DNA of 64,000 nt from Blepharisma japonicum (Eukaryota > Ciliophora > Heterotrichea > Heterotrichida > Blepharismidae): positions 768,251 through 832,250 of the forward strand of contig CATKHK010000005.1 in NCBI GenBank assembly GCA_949751835.1, given 5' to 3'. Positions 40,979 to 64,000 of this stretch are shown here, in pieces; within the stretch, counting starts at the first letter, position 1, and every line of letters starts with the position of its first letter. Position numbers and translations under genes: made by a program. The notes beneath the pieces were generated by a model that had not been told where the DNA came from, ran no database searches, and was given only the letters and a program-made list of their open reading frames with translations.

Positions 40979-41644
40979 AATTATGCTGAAAATTTAAACT
41001 TGAAAAGATGTCTTGTGTCTACTTCATTTATTGAATATAATGGACTTGCTATTTTATACTGTAGCAACAGATGCACTCAGTAGAGTGCATATACAAATAT
41101 TAGTTAACTTTCTTGAACCTATAAAATAAAAATCGCCAGATTCTTTTGTGTTTATTCAATTATGTGCTAGTTTAGTTTCCATCGATAATTTAAATTATTT
41201 TTTGAAAAATCTTGAGGATTCAAATAATATTTTAATAAAGACTCTGCAAATAATCGCCAAAAATTTCTTATTTCATTTACCCTTGGTCATTAATCATGAT
41301 TTGAGAAAATATTTAATTATTTGAGTCATTAATAATTTAAATAAATTACTCAATGCAAGTACCTTGGAAAAGCTTGTCTATCGATAAATAGTAATAATTT
41401 GATTAGTTAAGGACCTTAAGTTAAGTAAAGATTAAAAGTTTACTTTACTCACAGCTTAATCTAAAAAATTAAAATTAAGCTTATGGAAAATACATTGAAA
41501 TTTGCTTAGTAATTAATAAGCTAGTAAACACAATCAAAATTTTAATAAATTTCATCTAAATTTATTGAATGCGTTGCCATTCCACCCCAGCGATAGGCGT
41601 TAGTATCAAAGAAGAACTAATATGGAAATAAATATAATTTAAAA
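40979..41644. other. Intergenic divergent promoter region
   Basis: 666 nt, AT-rich, between the coiled-coil gene and the K+ channel gene. A 69-codon minus-strand ORF at its right edge overlaps the channel start and is a shadow. No RNA gene or repeat seen. Confidence 0.6.
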
Positions 41645-43009
41645 ATGATTCAATCAACAGTTGCATCTGGCTTACATTCCCCACGAGAAACCCAGCGTTT
41701 CCTAAACTGGGAATCAAAATACGCAAAAGCCCGAACTTCATATTTAAAACACAAAACAAAAGTCGAACCAAGTGGCCTCATTTATATTCAATCCGAAGAC
41801 ATTTCAATCACCAATCTGCAATCCTCAAAACTAAAATTTGCCGAAACGATTTGTGCAACCCTTGCCTTAGCTGGCTTCGTTTGCGGAGCAATTTGCTCAG
41901 ACCTGACATTCTCTAGTGACATTTACAACAACAAAAAAGTCCAAGTCACAATTTCATATATATTTTGTACAGTAACTACAGCCTTACTTCTTATCGCAAT
42001 ATGTTGACGTACATCAAGAGAGCTCAAGTGAGAGCAAGCCAAAGGGATTTTTTCATATCAAGATGACTTAATTTCAACAGGCAAAGTCAAATGACTTGTA
42101 ATAGAAATTGTAATAAATGCGATACACCCTGTATATGGCTTTGAGGACTATCAGCTGTCTACCTATAACAATGTATATGATGTAGATTATTCATATACTT
42201 ATACATCGATTTTTACTGTATGAATGCTGATAAGAGTTTACCATTTAATACGTGTTGCAAGTGTTTTGAGTGTTTATAGGTCTGAAAGGGTACAAAGGCT
42301 ATGCCAAATGACTGGGAGCTACGCAGGCAGCTGGTTTGCTGTAAAATGCATGATGAAAGATGTCCCAGTCTATTTATTGTCCTCAATGCTAATTGGTGGA
42401 GTTTTTATACTTGCGTTTTGCTTAAGGATTTTTGAAAGGCCACTAGATGAATATACAGGAAAAGCCTTTTCAGAGTATGGAAACTCGATGTGGTGTGCTA
42501 TAATTACTATGACAACTGTGGGATATGGAGATTATTTTCCCGTCACAAGTGCTGGAAGACTATTTGACGTGTTGGCCTGCATGTGGGGAGTCCTTTGTGT
42601 GTCACTCATGGTGATTACACTAACGAATATGCTGAAATTGGATGCAGGGCAAGAAACGTCCCTTTCCATTTTGAATAGACTGTGGTTTAAAGAAGAATTA
42701 AAACAGTTAGCAGCTTATGTCCTTACTTCAGCAGTGAGGTATAGGCTTTATGCGAAGCATTATCCGGGTGATAAAAGAAAAATAGCTATTCAATTGGGAA
42801 AATTTAGGCATTATTTTAATAATTTTCAGAGCTTTAAGATAAAGCAAAGGGATTTGTATGATTTTGACTCTTTTGAGGATAGAATAGAGAAAAAAATGAT
42901 TGATATTATAGAGGATAGTGAAGCAATTGAAGAGACGAAAAAAGAAATTGCTGAGATTATAGAATATTTACAGGCAACAATTCCAGCGAGGAACAATGAA
43001 AAATTATAG
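41645..43009 (+). CDS. SK-like potassium channel
   Basis: 454 residues, ATG 41645, TAG 43007-43009; TGA at 42005, 42032, 42092 and 42221 are Trp. Six membrane segments are visible, with a weakly charged S4, then S5 (VYLLSSMLIGGVFILAFCL), the selectivity filter MTTVGYGDYF (TVGYGD at 291-296) and S6 (GVLCVSLMVITLTNML). After S6, LKLDAGQETSLSILNRLWFKEELKQ and a basic helix (YPGDKRKIAIQLGKFRHYF) occupy the place of the calmodulin-binding domain of SK channels, and a coiled-coil end follows. A Ca2+/calmodulin-gated K+ channel is the best reading; no EF-hand or cyclic-nucleotide domain is present. Confidence 0.9.
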
Positions 43010-43361: not shown

Positions 43362-44273
43362 CTACGCCCTTGGAAGATTTACTCCAGGCCCAGCAAATTG
43401 AGGGTTTTGAGCCTGCCCTGACTGTGAATTCAGAATTTGCTCATATCCATATCCTCCAGGCTGTCCAGGATATTGCCCTTGATACTGAGGAGGGGCATAT
43501 TGCACTCCTGGCTGGCCCATCCCATATCCTTGCTGATACCCTTGTGGATACCCTTGATTTTGCTGATAAACAACCCCAGGATTCCTTACATACTGCATCC
43601 CATAGTAGCTCTGTCCTGAGTAGTTAACTATAATCCATTGATGCGCCACATGCGAAACAATGATATAAAGAACTACTACAATTGGTATAAAAATTGTCAA
43701 AAATAGTGAAATATTCGGCCCATCTTTTGTGCAAACCCCAGGGTTGTTGTCAGTTTTTGCATTCCACTTGCAACTATCGTCGAAGCTCGCATCAGTCACA
43801 TTTACCCACGTAAAAAATGCAATAAAATGAAAAACCATCGTTAAAATGGCTTTCAGGGATGAATAATGCGGCCGCCTTGTATAATGGCAGTCACATCCGC
43901 AGCGGACTACCCAAAAAGTAAAGGACCCAAACCATAGGAAAAGAGAAACCAGCGATAAAAACTCAAAAACCTCAAACCAACCGCCTCCATTCCAAAGGTT
44001 ATTGATTTCGTCACAAAAATTATTATAAGAGATGAGATTTGTGTCACAATAATCGTCATAAAAGTCGTCGTAGGAAATGTCAGGATTTGCACTATTGTAG
44101 GATTTAACATTGCGGAGCGAGCCTTTTATGTGAATTGGTCCTTTTATTTCTATTCATTCAGGAAGGGCAAAGGAGATTATCATCAATAAAGCAATTAAAC
44201 ATTGAGCAAGAAAGAAAACTGCCCACCAAATTCTAGTGTCAATTTTTAGAATTTTGGTCTGAATAAGTGGCAT
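43362..44273 (-). CDS. Four-TM protein with Gln/Gly/Tyr/Pro-rich tail
   Basis: 303 residues, ATG 44271-44273, TAG 43362-43364; one TGA is Trp (LPEWIEIKG). Four hydrophobic spans: WWAVFFLAQCLIALLMIISF, FEFLSLVSLFLWFGSFTF, ILTMVFHFIAFFTWV and ISLFLTIFIPIVVVLYIIV. Between spans 1-2 and 3-4 are Cys-containing loops. The cytoplasmic tail is built of YPQGYQQGYGMGQPG-type repeats, a low-complexity sequence as in synaptophysin, annexin VII or Sec31-like tails. The tetraspan plan is known in MARVEL/tetraspanin proteins but no signature of either is evident. Function unknown. Confidence 0.75.
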
Positions 44274-44705
44274 ATTTATATTTTATTCACCATTTAGGTA
44301 ATCTTATATAATTTTTCTGTAAGGAAATGAAGAATTAGGCAGTAGAAGAAATTAAAAGCCAGAATGAAATGAAGAGACAATTATTGAAATTCAAACAGAT
44401 AAATGACAAATATATAAAAGCGCATTATCTTGACGGAATAGAAAATAAGAGTTGCATATGGAATATAAATTGTTTCTTCTAATATTTTTTCGCATTCTAT
44501 ATTTTGCTATAGCTATTGATTAGATTATTTATTTCATTCATACAGTCAGAATTAAAACTATTAAATCCTTCGATAAGATCCCCAAATTAATAAATAGAAA
44601 ATAAGATATAAAAACCGCTAAGTTAAGATCTTAACTTCTTATCTTATCCTAAATTATCTATAACTAATAGTCTAGAAAGATCTTTTATTAGCTAAATATT
44701 TATGC
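44274..44705. other. Intergenic, AT-rich
   Basis: 432 nt between the four-TM gene start and the WD40-channel stop. A ~45-codon plus-strand frame near 44340-44485 (…KRQLLKFKQINDKYIKAHYL…) lacks a start and a partner exon and is not annotated as a gene. Confidence 0.5.
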
Positions 44706-47700
44706 TTATTTACTCTGGATTATTTTTAGAATCTCATCCATTTTAGATTTCATCATGCCAATTTCTGCCTTCAGATCTCTAAATCCCCTTTTCATTTCTT
44801 GTGCATCTTCATTAACGATATTTATTGAATTTTTAAATTCACTTCTCATTTCCTTTACATCTTCATCTATTGAATTTGCTATATTTTCTCGGAAATAATC
44901 ACATCTCTGCATATACTGTGTTTTTTCACTAAAAATATCACCAAATTTAAATATAAAAATTAAAGTTTCCATTTCGATTATTATGATCAGCTTTTCTTTT
45001 GTGTCCAGTTCTTCTTCTTCTTCTTTTGATTTTTCAAAAGAGTCTCCTAGTACAGATACGAGCAAATTCAATAGCACAATTACATTAATTAAAACTGCAA
45101 AAGTAAAATATAAGTACTGCAAGAATGAATAATTGCTATTGTCAAAGCCTCCAGCTTCAATTTCATAGGTTTTTTTTCATGCTGACCGTATATCCTCTGC
45201 TTCATCTGTCGTTGCATAAATTACGGTAAAAGCAAAAATAGAATACAGAAGGATAACAAGAAAAGGAAATGCCTCTAAGAAAGCGCGAATGATCAAACGG
45301 ACATAAAATCGAGTCTTATCAAAAACGCGAAAATAGAGTAATCCTACCAAAAAATTTGCGGCAACTGTTAAAAAGCCCACAGTGCTGAAGCTTTTTTCAT
45401 CTGGTTCTAAATCGGCTAAAAGAAAAACCATGATAAATCGAAAAATGTCTAAATAATTTCAAAAGCTTTTGAAGTATCCTCTTAGATCTGCTCCACAACT
45501 GATAATTTCAAAAAAAATCAGAGGAATGTTAATATATGCGGATAAATTCAGATAATCTTTATTACGAGTCAAAAAATAAATAACCATTAAGCCAAGATTG
45601 CACCAAAATATAATGGAAAGAATAAAAATTAAATATCAGATCGATTTTCATTTCTGATTTATCAAAAACTTGATGAAGTCAGTGTTGTAAATTGTTAACT
45701 CTTCACAATCTCTGATTGCTTTAAGAAGCATTAAGCTCTCGAAAGATCCGAGTGAGAAATTTCAACCAAAGGGGCTTGTTCAGTACTGAACCAGCTTTGC
45801 ATAACTTTTATTTTCAAGGTCCACAGGTCGAACGAATCTTAATTTTGAGAGCGTCGCACTTTCAATGAAAATTGTATTTGGCAAAGGACTTCTTGGAACT
45901 GCAAATTCTATATTTATAACTCCCTGCTTTCTAAGCAAGCATGAAAGGAATGGAATAATATTTACCTTAAGTCTAAATAGCTTTGGTATATCATATCTAA
46001 TTGCATGGAAATATAAGATTCTTAGAACTTCATCTTCAATTTCAGATATAAAGCGAAGTAGTTCAATCAAACTTCGCTGGGCCTTAATACTAATTGCATA
46101 GGTTAATGGGCTCGAGCCATTTAAATCTCTGATAATTGTTGGATTATAATCAAGCGCTTGCTTTAAAGAAGCAGCATTGTCATCTCAGCAATAGCAATGC
46201 AAACAGTTTATTCGTAAAGGAAAAATCGTTATTTTAGAAAAACTCTCAATTGCATCATCATTTTTTGGATTGATAAATCGCTTAATTGAGAATGATGTCA
46301 TAGTTTCAAATAAATCATCACAGTGAACAGACAACGACCCCCATTGAGATTTTTTAGAAACCAAATTTTTTATATTGTAAACAGACACAATTCTGTCACA
46401 TGATCCCATCACAATCATGCAATCATCACAAGGATTTTCTAAAATTTTCAGAGGTCTACCATAGTCAACAAAAACAGCTATTTGAGTTCTCTCCTTTAAA
46501 TTCCACAAAACAAGACCTCCATCATCAAGACAAGCTACAATAAACTTATCACTATGAATCATTTCGAAACCATTCACAAAGTCACGATTTTCTAGATTAA
46601 CAAGCATATCATTTCCGTCAAAACGCCAGATTTTAATTATATTAGTATTCGAAGAGGCTGCTAAAATCTCTTCCTCTTGAGCAATCCTTATGCACCTTAT
46701 TGGAAAATTTTCCGAAGATAAACATCTAATTCTAAAAACCTCAGAAAGATTTCAAATTTTGATAGTCGAATCCTCAGATCCAGAAATGAGAAATCGGTTA
46801 TTATAAAGCAATTTCAAATAGCTGATTGGACCTTCATGGCCGTTCAACGTACGTATAGTTGTTCAAGTAGCTTTGCTTCAGAAATTTATCCTAAAGTTTT
46901 GGCATTCGCAAATTATTTCACTTTGAGTTTCTTCAATGCAGTAGATTCTGGTGTTAACCTCAAATATAGCAGCTTGATTCCAACTGCCTATATTTCAAAC
47001 TGCTACTTGGCCTTCTTCTGATGCTGATAGTAAAAAATTGCAATCTTTTGTTGCATAAATCAAGCACACTGAATTTTCATGGGCAGGCAAATCTACAGTT
47101 AATTCTCTGTTCAAGCAATTTCATACCATGAGATTATTACTAATTGAGTTTGATATTAAAAATGCGTCATCTCTGGTAATCTCTATGCATTCGCATTTCA
47201 AAGACGGGTCTTCTATGGTTCACATTTTTTTCATTTGATGAATATCCCAACATACTATTGAGTTTTCTTCACTTATGGCTAAAAATGCATATTTGCCGTC
47301 TCTTGTCATCTTCATTCTAATGGTATTATATTCATTGGGATCTGCTCTTTTTTGTGATGGAGAAAATAAGCTTCTTCGCTCAATATTCCAAATTCCAATG
47401 CTTTGAGAGCTGCTAGCAATCAAGTAGGGGGGATCAATAGATTCGTATAAGCCTGTGATTGGCCCATTTCCTAAAGACAGAGACTCTACTTGCCTTTGCT
47501 GGTTTATGTTATAAATTTTTATTGAGCTATCATCACCGCCAGCAATTAAAAATCTTGAGTCTATTGATATTTTCAAATATAGTATAAAGGGTTCTGATTC
47601 AATTTTGAAAATTTCAGAAAAGTCATGAAAAGACCATATTTTGATTCATTGATTTGCAGAAGCAAAATATTGACCATTAGCACTGACTTCAATCATCAAT

Positions 47701-48530
47701 ACTTCTCCTAACTCAGTCTCAATAGTCTGTTCTAATTTATTTTCACTTGTGCTTCAAATCCTTATTTTTCCGTCGCTATAACCTGACAAAATTCAATTTT
47801 CGTTAATTGTTAGCTGAAGGCAATTGATCTTACAAGCATAGCCTTCTAAAGTTTTAATTTGTTTCCTATTGCTTATGTCTCACACCCAGATGGAGTTATC
47901 CACTTCTGCTACTGAGTAAAGAATATTTTGGGAGGTAACTTTAAGGCAGATCATCGCTTTATTATGCCCCTCTCGGAATTCAAGTTGTTCGCTCTTTTCT
48001 AAGCTTCATATAGCAAGACTACTTTTTGTAGCCGTTATCAATAGTTTGTTATCATATGTAATGCAAAAATCATTGAGCTCAGTCATTTTTAGTACTTTGT
48101 TCACCCCATTTATTTTAGTACTTGAAATAACTATACTTTCTGAGGAACTAGAGCAGATAAAACTGCCATCACTTGATATGCAATTCATTTTGATACTACT
48201 GCCATGGCATGGTATGGGTCTGGTTCACTTTTTTCTTATGAGGTCATAACTCTTGATAGTCTCATCACCCTCGCCACAATATAAATTGCTTTTATGGGCA
48301 AGAATTGCTGGCGAATTTGCCTCGAGGAAAATTGGATCTCCATAACTTGGGAGAGATTTCAAAATTTCACCAATAGAAGGCAATTGGGGATTAGGATCAG
48401 GCTTAGATTCCTCATAAAGCCATTCAGGATCAAACTCCGCTTTCTCGCAGAGCCAAGAAGGCTTGGGCTCGAACTCCTCTCAATAAGAATCAAAATTGGT
48501 AGCTTCAGGTCCTATTTTAGATCTTTCCAT
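44706..48530 (-). CDS. WD40-propeller/TRP-like channel fusion, copy 1
   Basis: 1274 residues in one frame, ATG 48528-48530, TAA 44706-44708, with well over ten TGA codons read as Trp, most at the WD40 Trp (for example STIKIWNLSE, NLMVWNCL). Residues ~60-690 hold about 14-15 WD-type blades, enough for two seven-bladed propellers. A linker (about 720-900) contains an ankyrin-like unit (IIRDLNGSSPLTYAI). Then six TM spans: S5 FPFLVILLYSIFAFTVIY, a pore segment near YSFLQYLYFTF, and S6 AVLINVIVLLNLLVSVLGDSF, which has the TRP/polycystin S6 pattern (N-x-L-I/V). The C-terminus is a coiled coil. Same plan, in the same orientation, as the next gene; the pair is a tandem duplication. Confidence 0.88.
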
Positions 48531-50550
48531 TTATTAAGTAGGTAATGTGGTTGAGTAGTTAAAGAAAAGATGCGGGAATTAAAAAACATGTAGAAAAATA
48601 TTAAAATATGTAGGAATTTATTAAAAAATCGGATAATTTTATAAATAACACTATATCTTTTTTATATAACTACAATATCATAATCATGAATTTTAAAAGA
48701 TCAGCTCAATTAACTATTCAATATAAAAATAACACACAATTTTTCATTTTATAATTGCAAATAACAACTTTAAAAGACAGCAGAATTATTAGTAATTATC
48801 GAAAATGTGAGTGTGCCAGTGTCTTATATTTCTTTTATAATCTTATTTGTATTGTCAAAAGTTGTATATTTATTTTTGCATCATTTTTTAAGTAACTCAA
48901 AGTTTCAGTTATTATACAAGCTCTGAACCTTTTCTTTACTCACTCTTTATCAGTTGCACCTTTCTCAAATATCACTTTCTCTTAAATCTCTCGACTCCTT
49001 TCAGATTTTCACCTAACACATCTTATAACATTTTTTTAATAAATAGCCACAAGTTCTAAGTATTTATATTTAACAATAACCTGATTTTTCCTCCAAAAAT
49101 CTTAAGTTCTTTAACAATTACTTCATCAATCCAATTTTCTGAGGCTAAATATTTTTTAATTATTTTAATTTATTGAATATATAGTGTCGTCTAAACTCGG
49201 CCAGCTTAGTTTTATGATATTTAATATTAGCAATTGCAGTGCATATTAATATGTAATATCATTTATATTAATATTAGCATGCTCTAGACCTGCAAAGGTC
49301 TATTTGTGTTTGATCAACTACTGGCAATGTGGCAGACATAGCAATAGTTGAGTTTGCACTGAAAACTCATATTTTGCATCTAAAATCTTAAATATTTTGT
49401 ATATTTATTTTGCCTTAGACCGAAAATTTTAAACACTCAAAGATATTCTTAGATCGATTTTGGCTAGGCTAAAATTTATCTGCATTATTTTTAATAATCT
49501 GATATATGCTGCTTTGAATACGTATTTTTTAAAATAATTGCAAAGGACACAGGAACTTTAACTTTCCTAATATTATCAGTCAAAAAGGATATTTAATTTT
49601 AATTTAATAATTAGACAATCCTTTTCATTATTAAATTAGCTCAATATTTCGCAACTTTATTCAGATTCACTAACTATTATTTTAAGTTTAATTGCAAAAT
49701 GAGTTAAACTATTTTAAAGTATTCATATTTATTCATTTAATGATATTTGGAACATTAAATTCAAACAATATATAGCACAAATTGTTGGATTAGGAACTCT
49801 ATCATATTAAGAATAGCTTGAATGCTTAATAAATCTTATACAGAATTATGAGATATGCTCTTCTCTTGTTCAAGGATTTGTTAAGTTTATAAATTAGTGT
49901 TTCTTTATTTCATTCGAATATTTGAAAATAATCAAATAAAAAACATAATTTTTTACAATTTGAAACTAACTATCATTTGTATAACAGATATAATTGATAT
50001 AGCAATTTATTACAGTTTATGCAATTTTCAACTATTTGCAAAATGTGTCTTTATATCTAATACTATATTCTTATTAAAAAGACTCAAGAGAAATATTTTT
50101 GCAGATAATGACCCCCTTGAGATTTTTTCTGACTTTTTTAGAAAAACAAAAATTTGTGTTATTTTCCAAGTTTTAAGGAATTTTAATAGGACAAAGAATG
50201 CCTTGTGGCATTCATGTCAACCAGTTTTAAATCTTCGAATAAATAATTTTTAGGTTCCTAGAACTAAATCTTAATAATCTTGAAATTTTCTAAAATTTGT
50301 GTAATCCTTACACTTATATAAGGTGAAAGAAGAAATTAGGAAATTACTGAAGAAATGCGAATTTTTATATATAACTAAAAAATCATAACCCGGTTTAAAT
50401 AAATAAATAAATAACGTTAAATAAATAAATTCTTTATTTTCAATAAAAATTAAGGAGCAATTAGATTTACTTTTTATTTTCTGACTATAGCGGGAATTAT
50501 GAATAAAATTAACTACGGACTACAGTAATTCTCGAAATTATGCTAATTTA
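48531..50550. other. 2-kb intergenic gap between tandem WD40-channel genes
   Basis: AT-rich, no convincing gene on either strand. Around 50030-50260 a minus-strand frame (stop-free for about 75 codons with TGA as Trp) shows weak likeness to the C-terminal WD part of the flanking genes (KITQIFVFLKKSEKISRGSL), and the plus-strand bases GACCCCC-TTGAGATTTTTT near 50108 match the same spot in copy 1. This may be a decayed third copy. An AAAT-type simple repeat lies at 50396-50430. Confidence 0.35.
50396..50430. repeat. AAAT microsatellite
   Basis: Short interrupted run of AAAT units (broken once by AACGTT). Confidence 0.8.
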
Positions 50551-53500
50551 TTAGTGCTTTTGTTTTATTTCTTTAAGCATCTCATCTATTTTTTCTTCAA
50601 AAACTTTATCTTTTTTTTCGATTCTATTTTCTAAATTTTTTATTTCTTCTTGAAACCATTCCACATCACGGATTTTCAGTTTTCTATGCAAATTCTGAAT
50701 CTCTTCTTTCAGCCATTCTTTATTAATTGCATTTTTTCTTAATTCAAATACTTCCTGTCTTAGACACCTAATTTCTTCCTTCATTTCTTTCACATTTTCA
50801 TCTAACACATCCTTTCTTACATTCTCTTGAAAATAGTCACATCTTTGCAAGTAATGCCTTTTCCCTTGATTAAGATTTCTCCTCCAAAACAGCACCGTCT
50901 CTATCTCAATAATAACTCTTAGCATTTCTTCCAAATCGATTTCTTGGGTAATTTCTTTAAGTCTAGAAAAAGAATCCCCTAGCACTGAGACTAATAAATT
51001 CAATAGAACAATCACATTGATTAAACTTGCAACTGTGAAATAAAGATATTGTAAGAATGAGAAACCATCATTATCAAACTGACCGATTTCAAGCTCATAG
51101 GTATTTTTCCATACTGATATGATGTTCATAGATTTATCAGTTGATGCATAAATGACCGAAAATGAAAGAATTGAGTATAAAAGAATAACCAAAAACGACA
51201 TCGCATCATAAACTGCATGCAAAATTAATCGAACATAAAAACGAGTCATATCAAAAGCGCGGAAATAAGAGGATCCTCGAGCAAAATTAATAGCGATTGT
51301 AAAGTATGTTAGGGGATAAGGGCAATTGTCATTAATGGTGATGATGCTTCATATAAGGCACATTGCCAAACGGACAGTGTCTATATAAAATCATGGATCA
51401 GAAATGCAGCCTCTAAAGTCTGCATAAATTTGGACAACTTCGTAGAGTCCAAGTGAAATATTTACAATTATAAATGCAAAAAAAATTGTATTGTCTTGAG
51501 TGAATACAGCAAAAATCATCAGAGCAATATTTGCCCAAAAGACTAAAGATTGAGCGAGAATAATGCTTTTAAGTGAATCTCATTTCAATCTTATCAAAGT
51601 CCTAATAAAATCTGTTCTGTAGATTTCAAATTCCTCTCTATTATTAATTGCTTTGAGCATTTTTAAGCTTTCAGATGATCCCATTGAAAAATTTCATCCA
51701 AAATAGCTGGCTCAGAACTGCACTAGTGTTTCTTCTTTATTTATAATGCTATCAGATTCATATACAAACTCATTTCTCCTCAATATTACTGTGGGCGAAA
51801 AAAATGTATTTGGCAGATCTTTTTTTGGCACTGCAAAACCAATTAATTCATCTTTTTCGCTTTTAAAAATGCAAGCCAAAAGCAAAACCAGATTTTTTAA
51901 TTTTATCTCAAAAAGATAAGGAATATCGTCTCTTATTGCGTGAATTGATATAAGTAGCAATTTTTCATCAGCTATTTTTGATAAATAAAGAAGTATTTCA
52001 TCAATGCATCTTCTTGATTTTTTAGTGATGGCATATGTAAGAGGGCTCGAGCCATTTAAATCCCTTATTATAGACGGCCCATAAGTTAATGCTTTACTTA
52101 AACAAGAAATATTGTCAAAATAGCAATAATAATGCAAACAATTTATTCTGAGTGGATAAATCGTAATATCAGAAAAGCTTTTAATGCTTTCATCATCTTC
52201 TGATTTTATAACATTTTTAATTGATACTTTTGTCATAGTTTTGTATAATTTATCAGAATAAGTGGATATTTCTTTCAATTGAGTAGGATGGCTGATCAAC
52301 TTTTGGAGATCATAAATCTCAACAATTTCTCGAGAGCCTGTAATAATTGTCCAATCTTCATAAGGTGATTTTATTAGCTTAATAGGCCTTTTATGATCTG
52401 TTATTGTGGCTATTTTATTTCAATCCATAAAGCTTCATAGAATAATTTTCCCATCATTTAGACCTGCTATAATAAATTTATCATTATCAATTAGTTCTAT
52501 ACAGTTTGCTGCATCAGAATTGTCCAAACCCATGATTTCTTTTCTTTCATCAATATCCCATATCTTGATTGTTTTATCGAATGAGCTTGAAACTACATAT
52601 TTTTCATTTTTAGACAATTTTAGGCACTTTATAATATCAGTATGGCCACTTAATACAGCGATTTGGGTTTTTATTGAAATATTTCAAATTCTAATAGTTT
52701 TATCGTCAGATCCTGATATAAGAAATTTCATATTAGAAAATAATTTTAAGCAGGATATCGATTTTGAGTGGCCATATAGGATTCCATATAAGTCTCATTG
52801 GTTTTTATTTCACAAACAAATTTGGCAATCAGCTCCTCCTGAAATAATAAATTCTTTTGTTTCTTCTATGCATAGCACATCAGACTCATGGCCTTCTAGG
52901 AACGCAATTTCATTTCAGTCTCCTATCCTCCAAACCTTAATGTACTTATCTTTTGAGCCAGACAGTAAATATCTATTATCTGATGTTACAAATAATACAA
53001 AAACTGAAGCCAAATTTTCTGATAAATCTATAATTCATTTTCTATTTTCAATGTTTCATACTTTAATTTCCCCGTAGCTCCCTGATATCAAATATTTCCC
53101 ATCTTTAGTTATTTCTAAGCATTTGATTTTACTACGATGGCCTTGGAGCAAGCCAATTTTGCATTTTTCGATAGCATCCCAACAGATAATTGAAGTATCT
53201 CATATACTTGTAAAAAAGGTGTTGCCATTAGCTGCAATATTAATATATTCTAATTCTTTTAAAAACCTACTCTCTGAATCTCCTTTTGAAGCTAAACTAA
53301 AATCATTTTTTTCCAGACTTCAAATTCCTATGCTTTCTACTGTATTTGCAATAAGCCAATTTCTCTCATCAGTTTCGCATAGGGTAAGAATGGACTGGTC
53401 TTTCAGTTTCAAGCTTTCCACCTCAGATGTTAATTTTATATTGTATATTTTTATTGACCCACTGAATAATCCAGCTATTAAAAATCGCGAATCTCTTGAA

Positions 53501-54414
53501 AATTTTATATCCTCAGCATAGTCATGCAAATCCAGCTTAAATGAAGCGATTTCTCTCTTTTTCAACAGACCTCATATTTTAATCTGCTCTTTTGCAAACG
53601 CAAAATATTTCCCATTTTTGCTGATTTTTATAGTTGGGATATTTTTCATTCCTGCGTGAACAATAGCCTCAACGCGAATTTCAGCTACATCCCAGAACCT
53701 TATGGTTCCATCATTAGAGCACGATAAAACTAAGTTTTCTTGGCAAGTCAGCTTTAAGCAATTCACATTTTCAGTGTGACCCTCCAAAATGGCAATTAAA
53801 AATTTTGTGTCTAAGCTTCACACTCTGATGGCTTTATCTTCTCCTGCTGAAAATAAAAAATTATTTTTTGTGATTTGGATACAAAGGATTACTTCACTGT
53901 GGCCTTCTAATTTTTTTAACTTTTGGCCATCCTCTAAATTTCATATAATGAGTCCTGAATCTGTAGACGCAGTAACTAGCAATCTATTATCGCTTGTGAT
54001 TCCTAGGTCATTTACCATATGTATACCTTCTAATGCTGCGATATGCTGCATTAGTTTTGGGTTTCATATACGCACGTTCCCATCTCTTGAATGCGAGCAC
54101 ATGTAACTTCCATCTTTTGAAAGTTTAAGTAGCAAAATTTGGTCACTATGGCCTTGAAGACTTCCTATTCATGATTTCTCTTCTAAATTATAAATTTTTA
54201 TTGAGCCATCAATGATTCCACAGTATAAGAAATTTCGACGGACTATTATGGAGTGAGAAGCTTCCTTCAAAATAGTAGGCTTACCATATTCAGGCAAAGA
54301 TTTTAAGACACTTTCTATAGAAAGTAATGAAGGGAATGACTGAACAGTTTCTTCTGAAAACTCACTAAAGGTGTCTAGTGGTATTGTTTTTGAGGTTATC
54401 ATATTAGACTTCAT
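50551..54414 (-). CDS. WD40-propeller/TRP-like channel fusion, copy 2
   Basis: 1287 residues in one frame, ATG 54412-54414 (a second Met is five residues on), TAA 50551-50553; numerous TGA codons are Trp. About 15 WD blades cover residues 60-700, with textbook units such as LEGHTENVNCLKLT...IRFWDV and LSGHTDIIKCLKLS...IKIWDI. The linker (706-905) has the ankyrin-like IIRDLNGSSPLTYAI, almost identical to copy 1. The channel follows: four spans, S5 FLVILLYSILSFSVIY (1074-1089), pore DGFSFLQYLYF (1116-1126), S6 ASLINVIVLLNLLVSVLGDSF (1129-1149), then a long coiled coil (to 1287), which could tetramerise the channel. The acidic pore GFDN/QFDNDG suggests cation selectivity. Sensing role unknown; WD propellers could bind a cytoplasmic regulator. 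Confidence 0.92.
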
Positions 54415-54844: not shown

Positions 54845-55613
54845 TTTAAATAGGCTGAATGACCAAGGATTAGAAAATGATTTTAGAAGAGCTTGCTTGT
54901 TATATAAGAGCAATCCAAATGATTATAACTTAGACCTTATGCAAGACTTATTAAAAGTTATTATCAAAGAGTATCACTTTATATTAAAAAGATATCTATA
55001 ATAGAAAAACTAATATATATAATATATAACGCTGAAAGTGAAACCAGTTAGACAAGAGGATTTATACTCCGGAGCTGTTCGACTGAGCATCTATGCCACT
55101 CAGCTTCAAAACGGCAAATTTTCTGTTTTAGCAAAGGTAATTATCCATCAGCTATCTATTTTAGCCAAAAGCGTCTATTGTTAGTGGGATAAGCAAAGAT
55201 ATTCCTTTGTCCCTTTCTGGCATATTTTACTTGGATAAAATTGTTGATTAAAGCTAACTCCATTGCCACAAACTGATTTCTTTTGCAATAGTATCGAATA
55301 TTTTGTTTTCTGGGTGTAAAACTAGAAATTTATTGTTATACAAAATTGACATTGACTCTTTCCACCCTCCTTATGAATTCGCAGCAGATAAAAAAAATTC
55401 TGATAAACTCAGAAGAGAGATTGTTTTTGATTGAATGTGGCAATGGGTCAGTCTATGAAAATTAAATTGAAAGCAAAAATGTTTTGCATAAGTTTCCGAT
55501 TCAAAAATCCATGGCGATCCTTGGCGAATATTTTTTCATATAACAAAGAGCGGTTTGCATTTGATGCCATTATAGAATTTATAACGAATGCTTCAAATTT
55601 AACTTAGGTAAAA
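54845..55613 (+). pseudogene. Decayed TPR/beta-propeller gene fragments
   Basis: Several short plus-strand frames, each protein-like, are broken by stops and frameshifts. 54845-55003 reads ...LNDQGLENDFRRACLLYKSN PNDYNLDLMQDLL..., with a TPR-like LYKSNPNDYNLD helix pair. 55297-55400 reads NILFSGCKTRNLLLYKIDID, a kelch/propeller strand pair; after a frame change it continues ...KILINSEERLFLIECGNGSV, then TAA, HKFPIQKSMAILGEYFFI, TAA, and CFKFNLGKKN. The strand pattern is that of kelch-type propellers. Multiple stops with no rescuing intron indicate a pseudogene. Confidence 0.6.
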
Positions 55614-55619
55614 AAAATA

Positions 55620-56945
55620 ATGACTGAAGATTTTAAATTATCTAAAGCTTTAATATATCAATCCACAAATTTCTCGAAATGGCTATTAAAAATGAACTCA
55701 GACTCATGCGATATCGAAAACTGCCAGAATGATGCCAACTTCATGTGCAACTGTGCTAATCCCGAAACATTTTTATGCTCAGCCCACATAAGCAAGCATC
55801 TTCAAGATTCTCCAGGTCCTCATCACGCCATCAAAATAAACTCTGAAAAAAAAATCCAAACAAAGAGTGAAACAATCGACTACTTAGCAAAGCAAACAGA
55901 AAAGCTCAAAAAACTCAAAAGAAGCTTGTGCAAAGAAATCGCATCAAAAATCGAAATGATTGAAGCCAGCCTTCTCAGCTGCACCAAGAAAATTGACAGA
56001 AAAATCTCAAGCATCAACCTAAAAATAAAAAACTTGATTTCTTCGGATGAGAAATCAGAAAATGACCCTAACCTTAACACTTTTATGAAGCTTTGGAAGC
56101 GTAGGGGGTCATTAAATATCGATGACTTAGAAAAGCGAGGATCTGTCGATATTGTCATACCTGAGAAAAAAGGATCAGTTGATGTAAATTGCTTGAGAAG
56201 AGGATCATTTGACTGTGTAGTCAGCGAAACTGTGAGTGTGATAAATAACCATAGCTTGCAAAATTTGATGAGAGAAATAAACTTATTTATGAGGAGTGCT
56301 GAGAGAATAAAAATTCATGAGTGAAATGAGTCTCCTGCAAGCACCCGGACGTTTGACGATAGCATTACACCAACGATTAAGGAGCTTCCAGAAACAAATA
56401 AGAAAAAATATAAAAAAAATTTTAAAAACTTAGAAAAACAAACTGAAATTGTAGAGGAAGAAAGAAGTTGCAGAGACTCTGTAGAAAATTTAGAGCAAAT
56501 AGAAGAAAAATTGACTAAGAGTTCAAGCTTTTCCAAGGCTAGCGATAAAATAAATGAGAATGAAAATGAAAAACAAGCAATGCCCCCAATCCAAGCTAAT
56601 CCAAGTCTTAAAGAAAATTACACTAAGCGAGATGATAATGACAGCTTTAAAAGCAAGCCTTTGCAAAGTTACTGTTTTAAAAATGTACCAAGAATAAATT
56701 CAAGAGAATCTTTAAGTCCAAAATCAAGCGAAATGAGAATTGAGGTCAGAGCAAGCTTAGAGTGCTGCTGCTGTGGAGAGTTTTTTGACTCTTCTGAAGT
56801 CGTCGAAAATTTCTGCGGTTGTCTTACATGCTCTAAATGCAATATTTTGGAGATGAAAAAGTGCTATCATATGAGAGGATATTTTGTTAATGAAGTCTGC
56901 AAAATTTGCCAGAGACAAAGACAAGTGACTGGGCATCGTTGGTAA
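55620..56945 (+). CDS. B-box/coiled-coil protein with all-Cys RING-like end
   Basis: 441 residues from ATG 55620 (or 417 from Met 55692, which directly precedes the B-box); TAA 56943-56945; TGA at 56322 and 56328 are Trp. B-box-type zinc finger (CDIENCQNDANFMCNCAN...CSAHISKH...HH) at ~29-69, a coiled coil (KQTEKLKKLKRSLCKEIASK) to ~150, then four copies of an ~11-residue unit carrying R-R/K-G-S (KRRGSLNI, EKRGSVDI, EKKGSVDV, LRRGSFDC). The C-terminus (382-430) is C-x2-C-x13-C-x-C-x2-C-x2-C-x19-C-x2-C, a RING-like zinc site with Cys in the His place. The reversed order (B-box first, RING last) is unlike TRIM proteins. R-R-x-S sites suit PKA/PKG. Confidence 0.85.
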
Positions 56946-57396
56946 CAGATGGGATTCTAAAAACAATATAAATAGCTTTATAATTTATAAGTAAAAGCCT
57001 TAAAGGCTAGTTTTATTTAATCTTTTATAAATTTATTTGCTATTCATATTATTTAAATATCCCAATTTAGAATGAAAAAAGAATGTTTTTAAGACTTTTG
57101 ATTTAGAAATACGTAAATAAATGCATAATATTAATTAAATGATTACAAAGATCTCAGCTACATTAAAATTAGAAAAAATATAAGCTTGATGTATCATTAA
57201 AAAGCAAAAATCATTGATGCAAACATTAAAAATTAAAACCTTCAATATAATTTTTGACGTAAAAATAGTTTAAATTGATCCAACGCTCATATTTTATCAT
57301 CAAGCACGCCAAAGTATTTGTTTTAATGCTCATCCTATTTCATTCTGATAAATTTTATGAATTTCTTTTATTGCTCTCATTTTATCAATAAAGGAA
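56946..57396. other. Intergenic, AT-rich
   Basis: 451 nt between the B-box gene and the permease gene, same strand. No coding signal, RNA gene or repeat seen. Confidence 0.6.
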
Positions 57397-58890
57397 ATGG
57401 CATTAAGTATCCGTCCACCTTCTGTTCTAACAGTAGAGCCATCCGGGTTTGGCTTTTGGACTGGTTACTTTTTCGCCGTCAACTGCGTTGTAGGAGCTGG
57501 CTTTTTAAGTCTCCCCTGGGCTTATGAAAACGGTGGGTGACTTTTTTGCCTGTTATATCAAATTTTTATGACAATTTTTAGCTTGATTCTTTCACATATG
57601 GTTTTTGAAGTCATGGGCCGTGTTGAAGTTCTCACACGAATTCAAGAACTCGGTAAAGACGTTCCACAGCTCGATTTCAAGCTTCTAATTTTTGGAAAAT
57701 CAAAAGGAGAACAATTAATTCCGATTACAGATCAAGAACCAAAAATTACCTCAAGAAGAACTGACTTATCAGAAATCGCCAGGCTGCTATTTGGCAAGCA
57801 TTTTGGCCGATTATATTTAGTTATTTTATACATTTATCAGCAAGGGATTCAAGTTTCCTACGCATCAATTTTTTCTTCTTCTTTTGCATCAAATATCCCT
57901 TTAGGGAATCTTGAAACTTGTGATGTATATGAGGAAGCTGGGTTTTATAATAACTGTAAATGAAAATATTGGATTTATTTGCTGATTTTCGGGGTATTCA
58001 TGGTATATTTGACACTGAAAGGAATGGAAGAACAGGTTTGGTTTCAATCCTGCATGACTTTTATGAGATTTCTTGTGATGAGCTTAGTTATCATAACAAG
58101 CATTTATGATATTGCGACAAATAATAGCAACGAAAGCGATAATCGAAATAATATAGAAATGCCGCCTTTAATTTCCTTTGAGCACCTTGGATCTGCAATT
58201 CCAATTGTCCTTGTAGCCATGGCATTTCAAAACTCAATTCCTACTATTGTGCAGCATGTTACAGATAAAGAAACAAATTTAAGGAAAATAGCAAATGCTT
58301 CTACTATGACTGCTTTTGGGTTTTATACACTTTTAGGAATGCTTGTTCCTGTAGCAATTGATGATGTACCGAGTATGTCTACTTTATCATATAGGAATTA
58401 CACAGCTGGGCATGAAAGGCATAATCGTCCTTGGTGGACTTATATAATTGAGTACATTGTGGTGATTTTTCCAGCACTTGACGTATTTTCGAGTTTTCCT
58501 ATACAAGCTATTACACTTGCTGATAATTTGTGCACAAGATATTATGGGAATATTCCAAAATTTCATATGCCAAGGAGAGGAGTGAGATTCTTTAGATTGT
58601 TAGTAGTTATTCCTCCACTTATTATTGCATTTTTAGAATATAATTTGGTGAAACTTATATAGGGATTTATATTGGAGTGGACTGGACTATTAGGGATCTT
58701 ATTGATACCAGTTGCAATACCGATGATGCATTTAGCGGCTAGAAGATTGGTTGATGGGGAATCTGTTCATGACATAGATATTGTTCCACCTGTAAGCTAT
58801 ATATAGATCCTGTGTATTATTTTGAGCGCTGTTCATATTTTTATCGCGATTTTAGTTGTAGTGCTGAATATTTTAGAATCAACGAAATAA
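57397..58890 (+). CDS. Amino acid/auxin permease (AAAP family) transporter
   Basis: Three exons 57397-58647, 58663-58791 and 58807-58890; 487 residues. Without the two introns the frame ends at TAG 58660 and again at 58804. About 11 TM spans. The N-terminal signature GYFFAVNCVVGAGFLSLPWA, with the unwound first helix typical of the APC/AAAP fold, and the later AMAFQNSIPTIVQHVTDK (as in AAAP helix 5-6) support the family. Large hydrophilic loop between spans 2 and 3. Substrate (neutral or aromatic amino acid) cannot be told by eye. TGA at 57538 and 57961 are Trp. Confidence 0.85.
58648..58662 (+). other. 15-nt intron (permease, intron 1)
   Basis: GTGAAACTTATATAG, phase 0; the only one starting GTG. 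Retention gives in-frame TAG. A at position 10. Confidence 0.9.
58792..58806 (+). other. 15-nt intron (permease, intron 2)
   Basis: GTAAGCTATATATAG, phase 0. Retention gives in-frame TAG. A at position 10. Confidence 0.9.
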
Positions 58891-63865: not shown

Positions 63866-64000
63866 TTAGGGTGTTAGGGTGTTAGGGTGTTAGGGTGTTA
63901 GGGTGTTAGGGTGTTAGGGTGTTAGGGTGTTAGGGTGTTAGGGTGTTAGGGTGTTAGGGTGTTAGGGTGTTAGGGTGTTAGGGTGTTAGGGTGTTAGGGT
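63866..64000 (+). repeat. Telomere repeat array, (TGTTAGGG)n
   Basis: About 17 perfect copies of the 8-mer TGTTAGGG (C-rich strand CCCTAACA) run to the end of the window, starting after the last unique bases CTGGGACCC. This is the G-rich strand 5'->3' at a right chromosome end, and the repeat known from Blepharisma macronuclear chromosomes. No variant units were seen. Confidence 0.98.

Follow-up and report, generated by a model that had tools for sequence, protein, structure and literature searches.

A family of WD40 propeller-TRP channel fusions in Blepharisma japonicum, with a conserved channel half and faster-changing propellers

Introduction

Besides their pore, known transient receptor potential (TRP) channels may have ankyrin, TRPM-homology, kinase or Nudix parts, and in the TRPV subfamily the N-terminal domain consists of six ankyrin repeats. 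WD40 propellers, on the other side, are generic interaction platforms, and two of them in one chain act as a sensor in Apaf-1, while the fungal HET-E/HNWD receptors join a fast-changing WD40 propeller, typically with near-identical blades, to a constant effector that is not a channel. Here, we describe two adjacent genes, on the same strand of a 64,000-nucleotide stretch (hereafter the window) at the end of contig C5 (CATKHK010000005.1, 832250 bases) of Blepharisma japonicum, which encode WD40 propellers and a channel with a TRPV-like fold in a single reading frame. They belong to a family spread over this genome (45.2 Mb in 224 contigs), in which the propeller half changes faster than the channel half.

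Two fusion genes at a chromosome end

With genetic code table 4, in which TGA is read as tryptophan, the two genes are frames of 1287 (gene 1) and 1274 amino acids (gene 2), each containing 20 in-frame TGA codons and needing no intron, whereas translation with table 11 or table 1 breaks both into pieces. This agrees with excerpts of the literature on Blepharisma, according to which UGA encodes tryptophan, AT content is 66% and introns are mostly 15-16 bases long (PMC9942806). The two proteins are 41% identical over 1263 aligned columns. Their parts are as follows, in window positions:

50551..54414, minus strand: gene 1, WD40-TRP fusion without intron (TGA as tryptophan), 1287 amino acids, AlphaFold2 model
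53317..54276, minus strand: gene 1 propeller 1, residues 47-366, from AlphaFold2 strands and Pfam WD40 matches
52309..53253, minus strand: gene 1 propeller 2, residues 388-702, from AlphaFold2 strands
51913..52140, minus strand: gene 1 ankyrin-like helices, residues 759-834, including IIRDLNGSSPLTYAI, from the model and a weak Pfam Ank_2 match
51694..51867, minus strand: gene 1 beta strands before S1, residues 850-907, from structure models
50953..51612, minus strand: gene 1 S1-S6, residues 935-1154, from alignment, models and fold match to TRPV1
50881..50949, minus strand: gene 1 TRP helix, residues 1156-1178, from models and alignment
50557..50814, minus strand: gene 1 C-terminal coiled-coil helices, residues 1201-1286, from the channel-half model
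44706..48530, minus strand: gene 2, WD40-TRP fusion without intron (TGA as tryptophan), 1274 amino acids
46371..48347, minus strand: gene 2 WD40 half, about residues 62-720, from alignment to gene 1 and profile blades
45021..45680, minus strand: gene 2 S1-S6, about residues 951-1170, from alignment to gene 1 and Pfam Ion_trans

A preliminary description of the window had placed two adjacent genes on one strand at these coordinates, which are exact, and had put WD40 half, linker, channel and tail of each in one frame, as is the case; the two sequences that it gave as shared, IIRDLNGSSPLTYAI and NVIVLLNLLVSVLGDSF, are each present in both proteins. We rejected the possibility that the frames are due to chance or artefact, since a long frame is kept in 34 of the 36 family loci that were fetched, and since in all 48 loci with a WD40-half match upstream on the same strand the two matches share one frame, judged for 21 of the 48 by the positions of the matches.

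The window ends in the 8-base repeat TTAGGGTG (16.9 perfect copies, 63866..64000), a permutation of the reverse complement of the telomere unit CCCTAACA given for Blepharisma in excerpts of PMC9942806. The repeat is thus a telomere, and the window a chromosome end of the macronuclear genome.

The WD40 half

Residues 1-1200 of gene 1 were modeled with AlphaFold2, giving a mean predicted local distance difference test score (pLDDT) of 77.5 and a predicted template modeling score (pTM) of 0.55. The model contains repeated four-stranded WD blades that form propellers, with 63 strands in all, 32 in residues 47-366 and 31 in residues 388-702, which we read as two predicted propellers of eight blades each. 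Propeller 1 is closed in the model by an N-terminal d strand, while the last d strand of propeller 2, which follows a low-confidence linker (residues 368-388), is not seen. The two propellers proposed earlier are therefore borne out, and the proposed total of about 15 blades gives way to the 8 + 8 read from the gene 1 model. In both proteins, Pfam assigns WD40 and many propeller families to the N-terminal half, profile matches at an expect value (E) of at most 0.1 mark 12 blades in gene 2, and the closest solved sequence to the WD40 half is 2ymu.

The channel half and its TRP affinity

Structure prediction of the channel half, a check that had been set beforehand, gave the six-span TRP-like channel that the preliminary description had proposed. 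Six membrane helices are present with a pore helix between S5 and S6 (residues 1098-1110 in gene 1, with GQF in the filter position), and a TRP helix, conserved in the alignment, follows directly after S6 (429-451 of the channel model). The membrane part of gene 1 matches the fold of TRPV1 (8t0y) over 265 residues at 2.8 A. Homology to TRP channels is significant for a profile of 34 members against PDB sequences, with a best E of 5.4e-17, and Pfam Ion_trans matches gene 2 with 33.7 bits, above the cut-off of 25. In 33 of 34 members, the alignment extends over pore helix, filter region, S6 and TRP helix, all of them largely conserved. The predicted tail also agrees with the earlier claim, the C-terminal helices of the channel-half model forming a coiled coil.

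Among solved structures, TRPV channels appear to be nearest to the channel half. TRPV entries come first by both profile and fold, with TRPM8 and TRPA1 close behind, a ranking taken from search lists rather than from a subfamily tree. The S6, initially proposed to be TRP/polycystin-like, looks TRPV-like rather than polycystin-like: the profile and fold matches are to TRPV, PKD_channel (PF08016) matches at E<=1 in 3/34 members (best 4.4e-6), and no polycystin or PKD entry is found among the best 60 of the 393 PDB matches of the family profile. In place of the six ankyrin repeats of TRPV channels, the family has two WD40 propellers and then a short ankyrin-like stretch (residues 759-834). That this linker is ankyrin-like is upheld by the channel-half model, whose alignment with TRPV1 starts at the very beginning of the model and at TRPV1 residue 202, and is weak by Pfam, Ank_2 reaching E<=1 in 16/34 members (best E 0.004). 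The beta strands before S1 (850-907) are presumably placed like the TRPV coupling sheet.

In one locus (L048, C66:220787-224380, minus strand), an open frame of 1198 amino acids lacks S4 to S6 and continues in frame into the TRP-helix region; it could be a relative devoid of the channel, the product of a deletion or an artefact of assembly.

Family in the genome

A search with gene 1 gave 36 loci (36 of 397 candidates were scored), 34 of which have an uninterrupted frame of at least 1170 amino acids, the remaining two having 730 and 993; C115:11305-13494 is a decayed member, in which 730 amino acids are followed by stops. With the channel half of a distant member as the query, 87 matches were obtained that fall into 79 loci, fragments included. 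The two genes are thus neighbors in tandem, as first described, and only two members of a much larger set, several other loci of which also stand in tandem groups (e.g., C2:832-854 kb). An in-frame upstream WD40 half is present in 57 of the 79 loci: 48 have a WD40-half match just upstream on the same strand and in the same frame (in 21 of these the stretch between the two matches is known by positions only, its sequence unread), 8 further loci are gene models with WD40 blades, and 1 further locus is in frame. For 35 of the 57 this comes from the DNA itself, and for 22 from the positions of matches.

Between the two genes lies a further feature:

48824..49159, minus strand: decayed 3' end of a gene-1-like copy, from local DNA alignment

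In local alignment of the DNA it scores 158, while 300 dinucleotide shuffles reach 94 at most, and it is read as what remains of a third tandem copy; a tblastn search of the intergenic DNA with both proteins gave no match at E<=1. A broken channel-half copy, matched in two pieces by the channel-half query and with 2 TAA inside its Ion_trans match, was also seen about 7 kb before the window start (C5:759706-761083, minus strand).

In the clade to which the window genes belong, loci are concentrated close to contig ends, with 10 of 13 within 20 kb (2.4 expected) and a median distance to the end of 11 kb vs. 80 kb; the other 23 loci are not end-biased (4 within 20 kb, 3.5 expected). This bias was seen post hoc, three contigs carry two of the 13 loci each, 3 of the 13 (a pair on C115 and one on C66) are outside the tree and were placed in the clade by similarity, and not all contig ends are known telomeres.

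Evolution of the two halves

One alignment comprised 34 of the 36 loci, omitting L012 (decayed) and L047 (1776 amino acids, with a long tail), and a second comprised 33, omitting L048 as well; trees were built for 32 loci, omitting L011, L012, L047 and L048. The trees of the WD40 half and of the channel half have 22 of 29 splits in common, compared with at most 3 in 500 label shuffles. Therefore, the fusion is older than most of the expansion, and the halves were mostly duplicated as one unit.

Nonsynonymous divergence (dN) is higher in the WD40 half in 16 of 17 pairs, the ratio of WD40 to channel dN reaching 3.0-4.7 among C29:454219, C41 and C39, and 2.5-2.9 with C53. The ratio of nonsynonymous to synonymous divergence (dN/dS) is below 1 in both halves of close pairs (8 pairs, several of them with saturated dS and one with no defined value for its channel half), and that of the channel half is about 0.1-0.26 where computable. 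Between C29 and C41, some propeller windows of 60 codons reach a ratio of nonsynonymous to synonymous differences per site (pN/pS) greater than 1, with a maximum of 1.56, few synonymous changes underlying these values. Within the propellers, changes favor the loops of the top face in 7 of 15 pairs (p<0.05), the window pair included; with 5 pairs against and 3 neither, a variable top face was rejected as a rule for the family. The 17 dN pairs and the 15 loop pairs were picked by hand as close relatives and are not independent.

Proposed function and alternatives

On indirect, evolutionary grounds, we consider the chances about even that the gene product is a TRP-superfamily channel in which the pore was retained while a double-propeller input module diversified, and that the propellers gate the pore. 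The N terminus would be cytoplasmic as in other TRP channels, with two stacked eight-bladed propellers, an ankyrin-like linker and a TRPV-like coupling sheet. The propellers might bind a cytoplasmic partner, either a protein or a small ligand, and binding might shift the linker, together with the coupling sheet, relative to the TRP helix below S6, so that the pore opens or closes. Four subunits, held partly by the C-terminal coiled coil, would present a ring of eight propellers around a pore that conducts cations, perhaps Ca2+. Paralogs would then differ mostly in their propeller ligand and little in conduction, and the family might act as a channel repertoire that converts many intracellular or membrane-proximal cues to one kind of cation signal. 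More tentatively, with the chances clearly against it, the family might be a subtelomerically expanding receptor-channel repertoire built in one ciliate lineage, in which a constant TRPV-like pore is joined to a diversifying double-propeller recognizer, so that a single cell would register cues such as self/non-self, prey, symbiont or stress through one cation signal; an equally tentative analogy would liken its logic to that of fungal or animal immune and chemoreceptor families.

Several observations weigh against propeller gating of a conserved pore. The evidence consists of sequences and models, and the pTM of the long gene 1 model leaves the placement of the propellers relative to the channel uncertain. 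Gene 1 scores only 18.6 bits for Ion_trans, below the Pfam cut-off, so that an automatic pipeline can annotate it simply as a WD40 protein. In the family, 22 of the 79 loci are fragmentary or show no WD40 half (these include short fragments, one contig end and loci with upstream DNA unread), and four well-supported conflicts between the half trees point to some exchange or error. The WD40/channel dN ratio is only 1.0-2.0 in other clades, and in the pairs C114/C71 and C71/C134 channel dN/dS is slightly above that of the WD40 half; because of these values, the speed of the propellers may come from relaxed constraint. The loop test is mixed, bottom loops being favored in 5 of the 15 pairs (p>0.95).

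Alternatively, the propellers may dock the channel to ciliary or cortical microtubules, with force through this tether opening it, in parallel to NOMPC, where an ankyrin spring transmits force to the channel. Axonemal doublet-microtubule WD40 proteins (8i7o, 8snb, Tetrahymena 8g2z and others) are indeed among the 50 matches listed by Foldseek for the long gene 1 model, and according to excerpts of PMC5068960 acid-induced deflagellation in Chlamydomonas needs both the TRP channel ADF1/TRP15 and the WD40, EML-related protein FAP16. However, ribosome-assembly double propellers and Apaf-1 (3shf, 3sfz) rank equal or higher, and thus the match is to a common fold; moreover, with conserved tubulin as the partner, the propellers would not be expected to change fastest, and we regard a tether as rather unlikely. 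Doubtful in a similar way, and unlikely on balance, is a role of the propellers in assembly, trafficking or effector recruitment, with the gate set by voltage, lipid or Ca2+. In favor of such a scaffold, propellers are generic interaction platforms, their coupling to the gate is purely inferred, and their placement in the long model is uncertain. Yet the fusion is kept in 57 of the 79 loci and no intact member was seen without propellers, and a passive role predicts less diversification than is found in one clade. Finally, the six helices might merely anchor the propellers in the membrane, conduction having been lost, for which the open frame without S4 to S6 at C66 could be quoted; the largely conserved pore helix, filter, S6 and TRP helix of the other 33 of 34 members, and the low channel dN/dS, make this highly improbable.

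A pore with two propellers, present in dozens of copies in one genome, would widen what can couple to a TRP gate, and would offer a molecular handle on heterotrich ciliate receptors, of which little is known. Given a constant pore and varying propellers, the exchange of propellers between paralogs would bear directly on whether the WD40 half sets the stimulus.

Neighboring genes and other channels

Adjoining the pair, 41621..43009 (plus strand) encodes a potassium-channel-like protein of 462 amino acids with TVGYGDYFP (Ion_trans_2, 48.7 bits; weak SK_channel), and 43362..44282 (minus strand) a four-helix membrane protein with a G/Q/Y/P-rich tail and a weak MARVEL match below the cut-off. On the other side, 55608..56945 (plus strand) encodes a protein of 445 amino acids in which cysteine clusters at the two ends flank a coiled-coil-like middle, B-box-like by eye and with no Pfam match at E<=0.01, and 57352..58662 (plus strand) an amino-acid transporter of the Aa_trans family (63.5 bits). 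Elsewhere, contigs C16, C71, C95, C26, C51, C159 and C6 carry runs of strong Ion_trans domains, close together on one strand, which resemble four-domain Ca2+/Na+ channels, with many copies at C16:129-146 kb and C71:206-226 kb.

Comparison with known systems

No description of a WD40-TRP fusion was found in the open-access literature, a scope outside which most subscription journals lie, and no relative was found in phage records, IMG/VR viral contigs or prokaryote genomes; a family alignment contained no stretch with enough conservation to scan with. The nearest counterparts are TRPV1, TRPV3, TRPV5/6 and Inactive/Nanchung, with which the family can be aligned in S1-S6 and the pore helix, in the TRP helix, in the sheet before S1 and in the last part of the ankyrin domain. 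In contrast to these, the larger part of the ankyrin domain is replaced by propellers, the protein ends in a coiled coil, and the filter is G[N/D/G/Q]F-like, that of TRPV1 being GMGD. The TRPM 'chanzymes', e.g., TRPM2 (8sr7, in the fold matches), likewise join a TRP pore to a large soluble module that is read as input or output, but this module is an enzyme domain, whereas here it is a pair of N-terminal WD40 propellers. In Apaf-1, the propellers are fused to an NB-ARC ATPase without a channel, while in this family they are fused to a channel. The near-identical blades of HET-E/HNWD are not matched here, as among 19 genes compared no blade has a partner in the same gene at 0.7 or above (highest, 0.57). 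Taken together, the parts are individually well known, while their combination and the size of the family are new as far as the open-access literature shows. We therefore regard these proteins as TRP-superfamily channels with a new N-terminal module.
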